Positions 5,444-39,382 of a DNA stretch of 64,000 bases are shown piece by piece. A program made the position numbers and the translations under genes. Source of the stretch: Pseudomonas sp. N3-W (GTDB lineage Bacteria > Pseudomonadota > Gammaproteobacteria > Pseudomonadales > Pseudomonadaceae); contig NZ_CP103965.1 in assembly GCF_024970185.1 (NCBI RefSeq), positions 1,112,001-1,176,000 of the forward strand, given 5' to 3'. Under the pieces are notes generated by a model. The model worked only from the letters and a program-made list of their open reading frames with translations, was not told where the DNA came from and did no database searches. How positions within the stretch are numbered: position 1 is the stretch's first letter; the number at the start of each line of letters is the position of its first letter.

Positions 5444-5787
5444 GGGGTGCTCTCAAGGGAGATGGCAAATTGTGACACGAAGCTTCGGGTTCTGAGACCC
5501 CCGACCAAGGGATTATCGCGTTAACGGTAACAAAGATTCACAAGAATCCCAGCTTATCGCCATTCGGGCCGCCCCATAGAATTGCGCCCAGCAGGAGCAG
5601 GCTGGCGATAGAGCCTGTCACGGCGCAAACCCTGTGGGAGCGAGCTTGCTCGCGATGACTGAATATCAGTCGACATGAATGTTGAATGTCAGACCGATAT
5701 CGCGAGCAAGCTCGCTCCCACAGGGTTGCGACGTCCGATCCCACAATTTTCTCACTCCTCCGCCCCCCATTTCAGGAATTCGCAGCA
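5444..5787. promoter_or_regulatory. Divergent LysR / efflux-pump intergenic region
   Basis: This 344-bp stretch has no gene. It holds a perfect 10-bp palindrome CGAAGCTTCG at 5478-5487, about 35 bp from the LysR start, and a REPIN at 5631-5725. Promoters for both directions must lie here; I see no strong sigma-70 box and no clear LysR T-N11-A site that I would defend. Confidence 0.5.
5631..5725. repeat. REPIN
   Basis: Left unit CCTGTGGGAGCGAGCTTGCT and right unit AGCAAGCTCGCTCCCACAGG are near-perfect inverse copies around the loop TGACTGAATATCAGTCGACA. Confidence 0.9.
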
Positions 5788-22781: not shown

Positions 22782-22871
22782 TGTGGGAGCGGGCTTGCCT
22801 GCGATTACGGTCTGACATTCAGCATTGATGTCGACTGATAAATCGCTATCGCAGGCAAGCCAGCTCCCACA
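22782..22871. repeat. REPIN between algL and algI
   Basis: TTGTGGGAGCGGGCTTGCCT on the left and GCAGGCAAGCCAGCTCCCAC on the right, around TCTGACATTCAGCATTGATG. The algL-algI gap is 227 bp, while most other gaps of the operon are under 40 bp. The element therefore interrupts an otherwise compact polycistronic unit. Confidence 0.88.
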
Positions 22872-27111: not shown

Positions 27112-28599
27112 TCAGAAGCGCCAGATCACGTCGATGAACGCGCGGTGCATGTACGAATCGACCTGCTTGCCATAGGCATCGCCGGGCTTGAACACACCGC
27201 CACGCAAACGCACCAGCGCCGACGGCTCGTCGATCGACTGGCTCAACGCCGCAGGCAGCAGGCCTTGTTTGAAGTACTTGGTGACCACCAGGTCCATTTC
27301 CTGACCGAGGTCTTTCTTGCCATCTTCCAGCGGCAACGAGGTGCTGGAGAGGATCGCGCCGGTGCCGTCGTCGGTGTTGTTCTCGACGGCGTTGATGCCG
27401 TTGCTGCCCACTGGCTTGTTGCCGTCCACGCGCCAGAATTTGTGGTAGATCAGGCTGGCGTCGTATTCGTCGTTGAGCATCCACGAACCGAACAGGGTCG
27501 CGGTCTGCATGTTGTTCATTTCGCCACGGAACGCCTCGCCGAAACGGTGCACGCGCGAACGGGTGCCGGTGTAGTTCGAGCGGTTGCTTTCCAGGCCGTT
27601 CTGTTGGTACTCGGCGCTGGCGCGGGCATAGGCGGCACCGACCTGCCATTGCGGATCGAGGCGCAGGCGCACACCGAGATCGGTGGCCCAGCCGTTGAGA
27701 TCGTCACCGCGCTTGGCTTCGGTGGGGCGCGTGCCGTCGGCGTTCAGCGCGTTGACCGTGTCGGTGTCGCCGCGCATGCCGGTAATGCTGCCCCAGTAGT
27801 TGACGGTGTTGGTGTTGCGCCAGTTGTAGGCGTCGCTGTCGGCGGTCAGGCCCAGCCAGCTGATGTCGCCGTTCTGTTTCTTGTCCAGCGAATCGCTGGC
27901 CACGCCCGGTTCCGGGTAGTCGAGTTTGCCGTCATCGTGAGTGTGATGACCGCGAACGCCGACCCAGTTGCCCGGTGACCACTGATACGCGGCATCGGCG
28001 TAGACGTGCAGGCGATCCTTGTCCTGGGGCGACAGCTCTTTCAAATCGGTGCGGTATTCGCTGAAGCGTTCGGCGACACCGGCGTTGGCACGCAACAAGG
28101 TGGTGTCGAAGGTCCAGTTCAGCGCTTCGATATTGGTGTCGCGCCATTGGCCGTCGTCGTTGCGCAGGCGTTGACGACCGAGCTTGAGCATCTCGCCGGG
28201 GTACGGCGTGAGGCCGCTGTAGCCGACCCAGAATTCACGCATGGCCAGGTAGTTTTTCTTGGTCTTGCGATCACCGTTGTCGGTGGTCTGGTTGGCGCTT
28301 TCATCGGACTCTTGCAGGGTGTCGGTTTCGATGATGTCGGTGGACGTCACCGCCTGACCCATGGCATAGGCGCTCCACGCGCCGCTCTCGCCGTAGATCC
28401 AGGGGCGCAGGTCCAGGCCGATGCCATTGACGTCGCCGCCCGGCGCGGTGCCCAGGTCACGGTCGTCTTCGGACTGACCGGTGATTTTCACTTCCAGGCC
28501 GAAGTTCTTGGCTTCGGTGAGTGCCGCCAGGGTCGGACACGACCACATCAGGGCGAACGTGAGGCCAATACCGGCCTTCACAAAGGGGTTCAACTTCAT
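27112..28599 (-). CDS. algE: Alginate export porin AlgE
   Basis: A 495-residue outer-membrane beta-barrel with a signal peptide ([15 protein letters not shown], cleavage near residue 25) and many alternating amphipathic strands ending in the C-terminal aromatic FIDVIWRF. It is the 18-stranded channel that exports alginate, working with the AlgK lipoprotein. Characteristic segments include [20 protein letters not shown] and [20 protein letters not shown]. Its start overlaps the algK stop by 4 bp, consistent with coupled translation. Confidence 0.95.
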
Positions 28600-30134
28600 A
28601 ATGATTCCTCGCCGTCTTCTTCTTGCAGGGCGTGCAGTTGCAGCGTGTTCTGGCTCAAGGCACCGCGAATCGCCTGTTCCTGTTTCAACAGGCGTTGGGC
28701 TTCGGGGAGTTGGGCCGGCGGCAGTTGGGCTTCGAGGGTTTGCGCGAGCTCATTGGCTTGCGGGGTGTCCTGAGCCTTGGCCAACTGGCTGAACACGTAG
28801 GCGTTGAGCGGGTTGGGCTTGGTGCCGCGGCCTTGGGAGAACAGCTGGGCAATGGCGAAGTCGGCGCTGTTCTGGCCGTTGCGCGCAGCGGTCAGCAGGT
28901 GGTCCAGGGCTTTTTGCGAATAGACCTTGCCCAGGTAGCCACGGCGATAAATCTGGCCGAGGTAGTAATCGGCCGCGACTTCTCTGCCGACGGCTTTCTG
29001 AAAATGTTCTTCGGCAACCCTGGCGTCGGCCGGCACCCATTTGCCTTCGTAGTAGAGCTTGCCCAGCAGCAATTCGGCGCGCGGTTGATCGGCGGCGCGA
29101 CCGTTGTCCAGGTACTTCATCATGGTGTCGACGTCGCCCAGTTCCGGGAAGTCGTAGAGCAATTGCGCCAGGCTGACCCAGGACGCCGGGTAGCCGGGGG
29201 CGATGTCTTCGAGCAACGCCTGCGCGGTTTTTTCGTCGGTCTTGCCCAGGGTCGAGTCGCCCAGTACGCGAGCGACGCTGTCGACGCGCTGAGATGAAAC
29301 CGTGCCGCGAGCGTGAGCGGCTTGCATCTGTTTGATCAGCGCCGCCTGCTGCTCGGTCTTGCCTTGTTTCTGATAGACCGTGGCCAGCTCGACGTAGCAG
29401 ATGTCAGTGCTGTTCAGCGCCGCTTTGCAGATGCTTTCCACTTCGTCCAGGTGCTGGTCGTAAGTGCCTTGGGTGCGATAGAGCAGCACCTGGGCCAGGC
29501 CGGCTTCCGGTTTGCCTTCGGCGCGCCATTTGCTGATCTGCTGCTGGGCGTTGATGTTGGGGAAACTGTGCGGGTATTGCAGGTACAGCATGGCCAGCGG
29601 GATCAGGGTATTGCCTTCGCCATTGGCCGAGGCCTTTTTCAGCAGGCCTTCGGCTTCGTGTTGCTCGGCTTCGGTCGAGCCGGGTTTGGCCACCAGCAAA
29701 CGACCCAGACGAGCCTGAGCGCGGGGCGAGGTGTCGGCGGCGGCGCGGTAAGTCGCCTCGGCCTGCCTGATTTGCGCCGGGTCGCGGCTGTCGACCTGAA
29801 TATCCGCCAGCCCGACCTGGGCTTCGGTGTAACCCATGGCCGCCAGTTGCTGGTAATTGTGCTGCGCCAGCGCGGTGTCGCCACGCTTGAGGGCTTCGTT
29901 GGCCAGGCGCTGGTCAGGCAGGCCGGCGCAGCCAGCGAGGCTCACTGCCAATGCCAGCACACAGAATGTCCCTTTGTGGGAGCGAGCCAGTGTGGGAGCC
30001 GGGCTTGCCCGCGATGCAGACGACTCGGTATTACCTGTAGACCGAGGTGATGCTTTCGCGGGCAAGCCCGCTCCCACAAAAGCTCGCTCCCAGAGGGTCG
30101 GCGGTGTGTTGAAAATAGGCGTCGTCACAGGCAT
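28596..30134 (-). CDS. algK: Alginate secretion lipoprotein AlgK with REPIN-derived N-terminal extension
   Basis: A 512-residue outer-membrane lipoprotein with TPR/Sel1-like repeats through most of its length ([40 protein letters not shown]). It localises AlgE and joins the periplasmic complex. The lipobox is SLAGC with [13 protein letters not shown] after it, as usual in AlgK. The lipobox cysteine falls at about residue 68 instead of about 25-30. The extra residues ([16 protein letters not shown] ... [13 protein letters not shown]) are translated REPIN DNA, 29973-30094. A GTG close to the lipobox lacks a charged n-region, so the long form from ATG 30134 is the best reading. The downstream protein is intact. 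Confidence 0.9.
29973..30094. repeat. Nested REPIN inside the algK reading frame
   Basis: An outer REP pair (TTTGTGGGAGCGAGC at 29973-29987; AGCTCGCTCCCAGAGG at its far end) encloses an inner, complete REPIN (GTGTGGGAGCCGGGCTTGCC ... GGGCAAGCCCGCTCCCACAA). The whole block is open in the algK frame on the minus strand. Confidence 0.88.
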
Positions 30135-30143
30135 GTCCTCCGC

Positions 30144-31316
30144 TTAAAGACCGGCGGCCATGGCTTTGTCGATCAGCCAGTTCAGGTTCGGGCCACGGTC
30201 GCTGTTCACTTCCACCGGGCGACCGGCAAGGGTGGTGTCCAGCGGCTCGTCCGGCTTGATCACGACGCGGATGTCGGAAGACAGGTCGGCGCTTTTCAGG
30301 CTGGTGCTGCTGACGATCTTGCCGGTGCGTCTCTGGTCTTCGCCGGCAATCTGGAAGCGCACCTGGGTGCCCGGACGCACGTCGCCGAACTGGCGATAAG
30401 TGAAGCGTGCTTCAACGTTGGCTTCGCTGTTACGCGGCACCAACTGGAAGATCACGTCGCCCTTGCTGGCGTACTGACCGTCGGCGACCAGTTGCTGGGC
30501 CACGGTGCAATCGCATGGCGAGGTCAGGGTGCCGGTCATCTGCTTGCCGAACAGTTCTTCAACCTTGGCCGGTTGCAACTGGTCTTCGTCCAGATGGCCC
30601 TTGAGCACGTCGAGCATGCTGGTGCTGAAGGTCGCCAGCGGTGCGCCTTTGGCGGCGACGCCGTCGGCCTTGACCAGACTCTGCACGGTGCCGTCACGCG
30701 GCATGGTGATGTTCATGCCCGGTACGCTGACCAGGCCGGCCTGGGCGTGGCTGACGAAGTACATGCCGTACACCGATTTGAAAATGAACCCGAACGCCGC
30801 CAGGCCGACGAGGAAAATCGCCAGGCTGAACGTCACCGCTTTTAGGCGACCGAACGGGGTCATGCCGTGGCCGCCATCCTTGACCTTGCGCGCCTTGGTG
30901 AAGTTGTCGCGCTGCAGGGTCGCCAGCACTTCACCCATGCTGACGATGTCGCCGGCCAGGTGCGAGGTGATCAGGTGACGCAGGGTGGAAATATCCTGCG
31001 GTTCGAGGTTCTGGAATTGGCAACCGGTGCGGCCGGTCTGGCGATCGTAGGAGCGGATCTGCAACTCCACGTCCATCGCCAGGCCCAGGTTATCGATGAC
31101 AAATTGCAGGCGGCCCTTGTGCACTTCACCAACGGTCAGGGCTTTCTGGGTGCCGGCGTTGAAGCACAGGCCACCGGCGGACAGGTCTTCGACCCGTGCT
31201 TCGAGCGGTGCGCCCGTGCTGCCGAAAAAGCGCAGTTTGGCGGGGATTTTTACCCGGGCGTGCTGACGCTGGGCTTCGGATTCATGCACTACGTTAGTGT
31301 TCACGGCGGTATTCAT
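30144..31316 (-). CDS. alg44: c-di-GMP-binding alginate co-polymerase Alg44
   Basis: A 390-residue inner-membrane protein. The cytoplasmic PilZ domain (about 14-120) has the c-di-GMP ligands Arg17 and Arg21 (QRQHAR) and Asp44/Ser46 in EDLSAGG. One membrane helix (about 160-185) is followed by a periplasmic HlyD-like adaptor domain (about 200-380). It activates polymerisation by Alg8 when c-di-GMP is bound. All four PilZ ligand positions known from P. aeruginosa are conserved at the same numbers. It lies 9 bp upstream of algK. Confidence 0.97.
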   Translation of the reverse strand: MNTAVNTNVVHESEAQRQHARVKIPAKLRFFGSTGAPLEARVEDLSAGGLCFNAGTQKALTVGEVHKGRLQFVIDNLGLAMDVELQIRSYDRQTGRTGCQFQNLEPQDISTLRHLITSHLAGDIVSMGEVLATLQRDNFTKARKVKDGGHGMTPFGRLKAVTFSLAIFLVGLAAFGFIFKSVYGMYFVSHAQAGLVSVPGMNITMPRDGTVQSLVKADGVAAKGAPLATFSTSMLDVLKGHLDEDQLQPAKVEELFGKQMTGTLTSPCDCTVAQQLVADGQYASKGDVIFQLVPRNSEANVEARFTYRQFGDVRPGTQVRFQIAGEDQRRTGKIVSSTSLKSADLSSDIRVVIKPDEPLDTTLAGRPVEVNSDRGPNLNWLIDKAMAAGL

Positions 31317-37751: not shown

Positions 37752-39146
37752 ATGGATGATCACGGACGTAGCCCTTCTTCCAACCAGCCAATCCTTTATG
37801 TACTCGATACCAACGTACTGATTCACGATCCCAACGCCCTGCTCAATTTCGAAGAACACCACGTTGCCATCCCGATGACCGTGCTTGAAGAGCTGGACAA
37901 GCTCAAGAGCGGGCATCACAGCGTCGCCGCCGAATGCCGCCAGGCGATTCGCCTGATCGACAAGACCCTGGGCGATGCCAGCCCCGAAGACGTCGAACTG
38001 GGTGTGCCGATCCAGCGCGGCAAGAGTGGGCCCAAGGGGTTGCTGTCAATTCTGATGAGCAAGCGCACCGAGCCGAACATCATTCTGCCGGAGCATCTGA
38101 ACGACAACATCATCATCAACCAGCTGATCGACCTGCACGCGCGTGACGCCGCGCTGCGCCTGGTGCTGGTCACCAAAGACATCAACATGCGCCTCAAGGC
38201 CCGCGCCTGCGGGATTGCGGCCGAGGACTACAGCACCGACCAACTGGTCGACGACGTATCGCTGCTGCCCAACGGTTACCACAACATGACCGGCTCCTTC
38301 TGGGACCTGGTGAGCAAGGTCGAAACCCGCCAGGACCATGGCCGCACCTGGCATCAGGTGAAGCTGATCGACAACCTGCCGGCGGTGCATATCAACGAGT
38401 TCATCATTGATGAACAGGGCTTTGTCGGCTGGATCAAGGAGATTGAAGAGGACCGCTTGCTGATCCTCGACCTGCATCAGGAACCGCTGCTGCATCAGGA
38501 AGCGTGGGGCCTCAAGCCTCGCGACATCTATCAGAGCCTGGCGCTGTACGCCTTGCTCGACCCGGACATCCATCTGGTCAATCTCTCCGGTGCCGCCGGT
38601 TCAGGGAAAACCATTCTGGCGCTGGCCGCTGCCATCGAGCAGACCATGGTCAGCAAACGTTACCGGCGGATCATCGCCACCCGCAGCGTGCAGGGCCTGG
38701 ACCAGGAGATCGGCTTCCTGCCCGGCACCGAAGCGGAAAAAATGGAGCCCTGGCTGGGCGCCATCACCGACAACCTCGAAGCCTTGCACATGGATGACGA
38801 AAACACCCATGGCAGCGTCGACTACATCCTCAGCAAAGTGCCGTTGCAGTTCAAATCCCTCAACTACATTAGGGGTCGCAGCTTCCAGCAGAGTCTGATT
38901 TTGATCGATGAATGCCAGAACCTCACGCCGCACCAGATGAAAACCATCATCACCCGTGCCGGCGCCGGTTCCAAAGTGGTGTGCCTGGGCAACCTGGCAC
39001 AGATCGACACCCCTTACCTGTCCGCGACCAGCTCCGGGCTGACGTACCTGACCGAACGCTTCAAGGATTTCCCCAACGGTGTGCACATCACCCTGCAAGG
39101 GGTGCCTCGCTCGATTCTGGCCGAATACGCGGAATCGCATTTGTAA
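37752..39146 (+). CDS. PhoH family protein with N-terminal PIN domain (PhoH2-like)
   Basis: A 464-residue protein. The N-terminal PIN ribonuclease domain (about 12-135) has acidic residues in YVLDTNVLIHD and LEELDKLK. The C-terminal PhoH ATPase domain (about 230-460) has Walker A GAAGSGKTILALA near residue 280 and Walker B LILIDECQNL. PIN-PhoH fusions act as ATP-dependent RNA helicase/ribonucleases; the cellular targets are unknown. The ATG at 37752 is followed closely by the PIN domain. It is monocistronic, ending at a strong terminator (39158-39187). Confidence 0.92.
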   Translation: MDDHGRSPSSNQPILYVLDTNVLIHDPNALLNFEEHHVAIPMTVLEELDKLKSGHHSVAAECRQAIRLIDKTLGDASPEDVELGVPIQRGKSGPKGLLSILMSKRTEPNIILPEHLNDNIIINQLIDLHARDAALRLVLVTKDINMRLKARACGIAAEDYSTDQLVDDVSLLPNGYHNMTGSFWDLVSKVETRQDHGRTWHQVKLIDNLPAVHINEFIIDEQGFVGWIKEIEEDRLLILDLHQEPLLHQEAWGLKPRDIYQSLALYALLDPDIHLVNLSGAAGSGKTILALAAAIEQTMVSKRYRRIIATRSVQGLDQEIGFLPGTEAEKMEPWLGAITDNLEALHMDDENTHGSVDYILSKVPLQFKSLNYIRGRSFQQSLILIDECQNLTPHQMKTIITRAGAGSKVVCLGNLAQIDTPYLSATSSGLTYLTERFKDFPNGVHITLQGVPRSILAEYAESHL

Positions 39147-39157
39147 CAACCTCACCC

Positions 39158-39187
39158 AAACCGGGCGGCCTGAAAGTCGCCCGGTTT
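39158..39187 (+). terminator. Rho-independent terminator after phoH
   Basis: AAACCGGGCG (39158-39167) pairs perfectly with CGCCCGGTTT (39178-39187) and runs into TTTTTA. It starts 11 bp after the phoH stop. Confidence 0.9.
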
Positions 39188-39209
39188 TTATGTCCGCCAC
39201 AAATCAAAA

Positions 39210-39299
39210 TGTGGGAGCGTGGCTTGCCCGCGATGCAGGCGCTGCGGTTCACTTGTTACACCGCGGTGATGCCATCGCGGGCAAGCCACGCTCCCACAG
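39210..39299. repeat. REPIN
   Basis: TGTGGGAGCGTGGCTTGCCC on the left and GGGCAAGCCACGCTCCCACA on the right, exact inverse copies. It lies between the phoH terminator and moaC. Confidence 0.9.
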
Positions 39300-39382
39300 G
39301 GATTCAACGTGATCTTGCAATCAAACTCGCGATAATCTGACCCGCAGGTTTACAATCGACGCTCCTGATCAGGAGTAACCCC

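Follow-up and report, generated by a model that had tools for sequence, protein, structure and literature searches.

The closest described precedent is the survey deposited as PMC3733652, which we take to be the study of Di Nocera and colleagues (2013). In the parts of it considered here, intragenic dimers of REPs of the GTAG and CGTC families were described that code for 20-30 amino acids in several species; intragenic REPs were more numerous near the N-terminus than near the C-terminus of the protein, and in recB of two Xanthomonas species they occupied about the same site (PMC3733652). The same source cautions that, in P. putida, C. koseri and S. maltophilia, REPs placed at the 5' end of ORFs may for the most part be non-coding, the starts being wrongly annotated (PMC3733652). 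AlgK does not occur by name in the main text of that paper, and no report of REPs in algK was found in the literature searched, most subscription journals being outside its coverage. Excerpts from two other studies are relevant. In Pseudomonas fluorescens SBW25 the REPINs are essentially extragenic, genes being overlapped at only 14 of the 1,067 sites where the three top 16-mers occur (PMC3116915). The Rickettsia palindromic elements (RPEs) are found in frame in unrelated protein genes and code for a conserved peptide (PMC10969869).

In algK of Pseudomonas sp. N3-W, which lies in the window (the whole 64-kb stretch of DNA analysed), an 88-nt REP doublet is nested between the heads of another REP pair of class A (Table 1). 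The first-pass annotation had proposed a nested REPIN in the algK frame that lengthens the signal region, and the element and its outer heads were indeed found where it had placed them. The doublet consists of two inverted REPs with a short spacer, which is the structure of a REPIN, and the stem of one arm is 1 base pair shorter than the stem of the other. A 301-nt region including the element reached a folding energy of -151.4 kcal/mol compared with -116.7 kcal/mol (sd 5.6) in 100 shuffles (z = -6.2), none of which was as stable as the native region.

Table 1. Features of the algK locus in the window.
Feature	Position	Strand	Evidence
algK coding sequence, REP-derived segment included	28596..30134	minus	512-aa ORF; NCBIfam NF038194; PDB matches
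Shine-Dalgarno GGAGG ahead of the upstream ATG of algK	30137..30141	minus	sequence
algK start codon ATG (MPVTTP...)	30132..30134	minus	MPV-type start common among REP-free relatives too
Outer REP head, 5' side within algK, 13 nt, TGGGAGCGAGCTT; codes WERAF	30080..30092	minus	sequence, relatives
Inner REPIN, 88 nt, class C stem GCGGGC-TT-GCCCGC; codes ...SRASPAPT	29991..30078	minus	sequence, genome matches, relatives
Outer REP head, 3' side within algK, 17 nt, TGGCTCGCTCCCACAAA; codes LARSHK before the hydrophobic core	29973..29989	minus	sequence, relatives
Hydrophobic core and lipobox; Cys codon 29928-29930	29928..29969	minus	ORF; pN/pS 0.16 across relatives
Upstream gene (presumably alg44, from the operon context)	30144..31316	minus	ORF

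The algK element resembles the intragenic REPs described earlier in being a REP dimer inside an ORF with an N-terminal placement, and differs from the N-terminal REPs suspected to be non-coding in that many species conserve the frame, with several REP classes and every codon phase represented among them (sections of PMC3733652). With the REPINs of SBW25 it shares the inverted doublet, the palindromic cores, the spacing, the high copy number and the presence of Y1 transposase genes, but those elements are essentially extragenic whereas this one is situated inside a coding sequence (sections of PMC3116915). Being intragenic it thus departs from the usual extragenic placement, which is a habit of REPINs and not part of the doublet structure. 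It is comparable to the RPEs as a palindromic mobile element in frame within a protein gene; the RPEs, in contrast, are found in unrelated genes with a conserved peptide, whereas in algK one position is shared by different REP classes, which use three phases and encode no conserved peptide (sections of PMC10969869). Since intragenic REPs are already known, what appears to be new is that one position is reoccupied across the genus and that comparison provides evidence of translation. The algK case argues against misannotation as the explanation for N-terminal REPs. A single coding position takes REPs of different classes, in every frame and in many species, while a gene for alginate export remains unbroken. 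This makes the site a natural experiment on the conversion of mobile hairpins into protein and on the freedom of signal-peptide n-regions, and one where insertion, exchange and decay of REPINs can be tracked against fixed flanking genes.

The protein is identified as AlgK by its match to the NCBIfam equivalog NF038194 at 811.6 bits (cut-off 700), and this profile match starts only at residue 56. The alignments with the AlgK structures 3e4b and 7ula (PDB) run from residues 70 and 69 onward, respectively. The ATG at 30134 is 9 bases after the stop codon of the upstream gene (30144-30146). Counted from this ATG the last residue of the lipobox LAGC is codon 69 (Cys), which bears out the earlier remark that the lipobox is unusually far from the start. 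Of the 155 REP carriers classified in the survey described below, 149 have a Shine-Dalgarno (SD)-like motif ahead of the start. Autotransporters with extended signal peptides (ESPR) also combine an ordinary hydrophobic core with an n-region of unusual length in front of it. AlgK is like them in these two respects and unlike them in that its N-terminus has no Pfam match. When other genes with similar N-termini were searched for among proteins that were close in length and had short words in common, 57 of 58 rows belonged to PF27483 and the remaining one was named AlgK; a second search, restricted to the same kind of candidates, gave 15 of 16 rows in PF27483 and one hypothetical REP array (P0064).

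With N3-W AlgK as query 394 of the 398 genomes of the genus were matched at E <= 0.001, some of them weakly and by proteins other than AlgK. The survey comprised 220 loci, one per species and N3-W included: the 150 best matches and 70 loci from 80 further chosen genomes. Because the query itself contains the insert, the first 150 are skewed toward REP carriers. Classification by regular expressions covered 218 loci and assigned REP material at the algK site to 155 of them (63 REP-free); the other two were judged by eye, L245 as a carrier and L262 as REP-free, which brings the count to 156 out of 220. Among the 80 named records 73 were carriers and 7 were not, the latter including L060, which is N-filled. 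The 155 carriers were divided into 73 A-A, 18 B-B, 16 C1, 11 nested, 9 tail-to-tail, 8 A-B', 4 C0-C0, 4 B-A, 3 D, 3 A-C0 and 3 half A, with one each of B-B', B-C0 and half C0. Comparison of relatives thus shows both the presence and the recurrence of REP material at this site. An insertion that is specific for the strain or rare at this site, as first envisaged, is therefore rejected: REP material is present there in 156 of the 220 fetched loci, a draw that favours carriers, and even the nested layout is common to P. mandelii RIT-562 (L009), L010, L116 and L117. A long N-terminus of unrelated sequence in all relatives, which would have spoken against the first-pass reading, was not observed; the length of most long relatives is likewise due to REP elements. 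In 46 of the 63 REP-free loci 20-27 residues were counted up to the Cys (e.g. MPVTSPLRILPVPLTLAMAIALAGC), some of the remaining ones being badly parsed.

Apart from these classes, three AlgK N-termini of 60-63 codons (L164, L171 and L187) are without a recognisable REP and perhaps represent old decayed insertions or another element. L297 (G024), with a 60-codon N-terminus and classed as REP-free, has a lone TAGGAGCG some 89 nt upstream of the lipobox Cys, which may represent a degenerate REP. A 15-base in-frame addition resembling GTCGGATCGCCGCAC was seen in the right REP arm of L119, L120, L151 and L211, in the backgrounds A and C0.

All 156 carriers (the 155 classified ones and L245) keep one frame, uninterrupted by a stop, from the start to the lipobox, at 21 different lengths ranging from 41 to 71 codons. 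The classification had read only the lipobox frame, and therefore every frame of 70 REP-free loci (7 named records and 63 others) was scanned over as much as 330 nt ahead of the Cys. Core-like hits were obtained in only three of them, namely L264 (half a REP, in frame), L289 and L297 (both short and weak), so that no clear case of a frame-broken REP was seen among these 70 loci within that distance. As a control for chance, 21 other REPINs of N3-W were read in both orientations and all frames: 64 of the 126 readings were open and 2 of the 21 lengths were divisible by three, so that these other copies would in many cases not be accommodated. The chance that a random insertion is open and in frame is roughly one in six, and the number of independent insertion events at algK is estimated, without proof, at eight or more. 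The stops seen in some distant genomes fit alignments extending upstream past the start, and the open frames of L269-L274 begin inside those alignments, L270-L274 being without a REP core.

REPs of classes A, B and C, chimeras, tail-to-tail and nested forms are all found at the site, and their heads use all three codon phases (0, 1 and 2), of which phase 0 is limited to two loci. Compared with the simple loci L014 and L103, the nested ones (N3-W, L010, L009 and L116) have 16 nt more on the left and 17 nt more on the right. Each addition alone would break the gene, and together they amount to 11 codons, so that the inner REPIN is shifted in frame while the start and the hydrophobic core remain in frame with each other. 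In this inner REPIN other peptides replace the ERACSR...REQARSH type of the simple relatives. A conserved peptide, as expected of an RPE-like coding palindrome, is thus absent from the algK REP, given its three codon phases and a pN/pS of 0.62. What is conserved is the continuity from the start to the hydrophobic core and not the peptide; this continuity would be the mark of translation through the element.

From 194 distinct carrier N-termini, 123 nearest pairs, which are not independent of each other, were used to estimate the constraint on the sequence. The pN/pS was 0.62 in the REPIN and 0.61 before it, compared with 0.16 over the last 14 codons up to and including the Cys and 0.02 over the first 16 codons of the mature protein. 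On this comparison the AlgK n-region appears to be weakly constrained, for which a pN/pS near 0.6 is modest evidence, and constraint on the hairpin could mimic part of the signal. The mean net charge of the n-region was +3.1 in carriers versus +1.3 in REP-free loci, and a charge of at least +1 adjoining the core was present in 144 of 154 carriers and 53 of 57 REP-free loci.

The explanation that we consider quite probable is that AlgK starts at the ATG at 30134 and that read-through of the REPIN produces a signal-peptide n-region which is positively charged and under weak constraint, at a site where REPINs land repeatedly. Translation would begin at this ancestral ATG and pass through the hairpin, and the REPIN would become the long, arginine-containing n-region of a lipoprotein signal peptide. 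Signal peptidase II would then cleave before Cys69, giving a normal mature AlgK. The site would act as a recurrent landing and turnover site where REPINs insert, swap, nest and decay, and selection would retain those variants in which the start codon and the hydrophobic core are in one open frame. The REPIN is presumably translated and the precursor cleaved at the lipobox; the insertion itself would be due to a RAYT transposase or to recombination, and the insert is probably tolerated instead of useful. The form with the long n-region, one of two products proposed in the first-pass annotation, is accordingly taken as the likely one.

The other proposed product would result from translation restarting inside algK, downstream of the REPIN and ahead of the lipobox; the element would then be in effect an untranslated or separately translated leader. 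We regard this as improbable. An in-frame ATG is present 12-25 codons before the Cys in 65 of 154 carriers versus 2 of 57 REP-free loci, often in an 'SHMG' at the end of the REP, and it is in line with such a restart that most N-terminal REPs in some species were suggested to be non-coding (sections of PMC3733652). However, an internal start combined with an SD-like motif at this distance was found in only 20 of the 154 carriers, which rules out a conserved internal start. The GTG originally proposed in N3-W (codon 59) is preceded by AAAGGGA, but it lies only 10 codons before the Cys, outside the 12-25 rule, and the short AlgK starting there would have 10 residues before the Cys without any Lys or Arg. 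Moreover, a leader needs no open frame, yet all 156 carriers are open, and REP-free relatives start at the same upstream MPV. That a hairpin near the start slows initiation, as also suggested at first, did not hold for the predicted structures: the openness of the SD/AUG region was 0.46 with and 0.47 without the REP (p = 0.75), so that occlusion of the ribosome binding site could be discarded.

A use for the hairpin is somewhat less improbable than an internal restart, and still unlikely in our opinion. The mRNA structure would then tune the translation of algK, pausing or mRNA stability inside the alginate operon, and the frame would be kept because the element has to be translated. When the stems were scored by a single rule, 109 of 155 carriers had both REP stems recognisable, 36 had one and 10 had none; the mean minimum free energy of the start region is -140 kcal/mol in carriers versus -121 kcal/mol in REP-free loci, and several REP classes occupy one place in algK. 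Yet 63 of 218 loci do without the element, the predicted openness at the SD/AUG is unchanged, recognisable stems are also explained by recent insertion of hairpin elements, and in L247, L250, L258 and L264 the element is only partly kept. A related proposal, to which we likewise attach a low probability, is that of an exapted niche, where a hairpin renewed from the species' own REPINs would serve as a module for both a charged n-region and translational pausing or mRNA stability, thereby tuning AlgK export, and selection would retain REPINs at the site. That the repeats are due to chance or to an assembly artefact is hardly conceivable. Hairpins can be misassembled, as L060 with its Ns and a collapse at the site illustrates, but 156 of the 220 loci have REP material at this very position, the same cores are present in many copies across most of the counted carrier genomes, and many of the surveyed genomes are single closed contigs.

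The turnover that forms part of the preferred explanation, read-through at a recurrent REPIN site, was followed on a FastTree tree of the flanking DNA (the end of the upstream gene and mature algK; 122 distinct rows). The REP class required at least 46 changes on this tree, a count that recombination may inflate by disturbing the tree, compared with 59-68 in 100 shuffles, and presence or absence of a REP required 13 changes compared with 16-20. Because the 46 changes are to be set against 59-68 in the shuffles, the class at algK appears to be inherited to some extent and exchanged to a large extent. The insertions in other N-terminal surroundings (e.g. L294/L295, L287, L288 and L280/L281) look independent, judging from their sequence. 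Partial elements, as in L247, L250, L258, L264 and L141, suggest decay by in-frame deletion. In a comparison with the REPs of the own genome, 31 of 54 counted genomes were given a single algK class, and with statistics that ignore kinship this class was more abundant in its own genome than in others for B (p = 1e-5; when the tail-to-tail loci G007 and G009 are left out, p = 5e-5), C1 (p = 4e-5), A (p = 0.006) and C0 (p = 0.03). Among the four counted classes it ranked first in only 19 of the 31 genomes. A nearly identical REP-free N-terminus, MPVTSP.RILPVPL, is shared by L043, L056, L066, L072, L075, L249 and L251, which are scattered on the flanking tree. The N-termini of L251 and L249 differ from those of L082 and L061 despite flanks that are 94-95% identical, hinting at local recombination at the algK N-terminus.

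The algK region gave 273 matches in the genome of N3-W, itself included, and exact REP cores numbered 735 for class A, 1 for class B, 222 for class C and 166 for class C1. Palindromic cores of high copy number, as expected for REPINs, are thus provided by A, C and C1, and the abundant classes A and C are those of the outer and inner parts of the algK element. Two Y1_Tnp genes (PF01797 matches above the cut-off), as expected for RAYTs, are encoded. In a census based on pattern counts and 20 genome stretches, 14 of the 19 other REPINs checked were not spanned by any ORF of at least 100 aa. The other five were located inside such ORFs (L313, L314, L315, L324 and window 38912-39337), which are likely over-extended since they have no Pfam or NCBIfam match. 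In the window, further REPINs at 5633-5722 and 22782-22871 have no spanning ORF of at least 100 aa, and one at 39210-39298 is within a 142-aa ORF without a family match. Elsewhere in this genome (G000), dense REP matches at fairly even intervals of roughly 130-200 bases near 4.334, 4.099, 4.054, 3.766, 3.740, 3.029 and 2.712 Mb look like tandem REP arrays.
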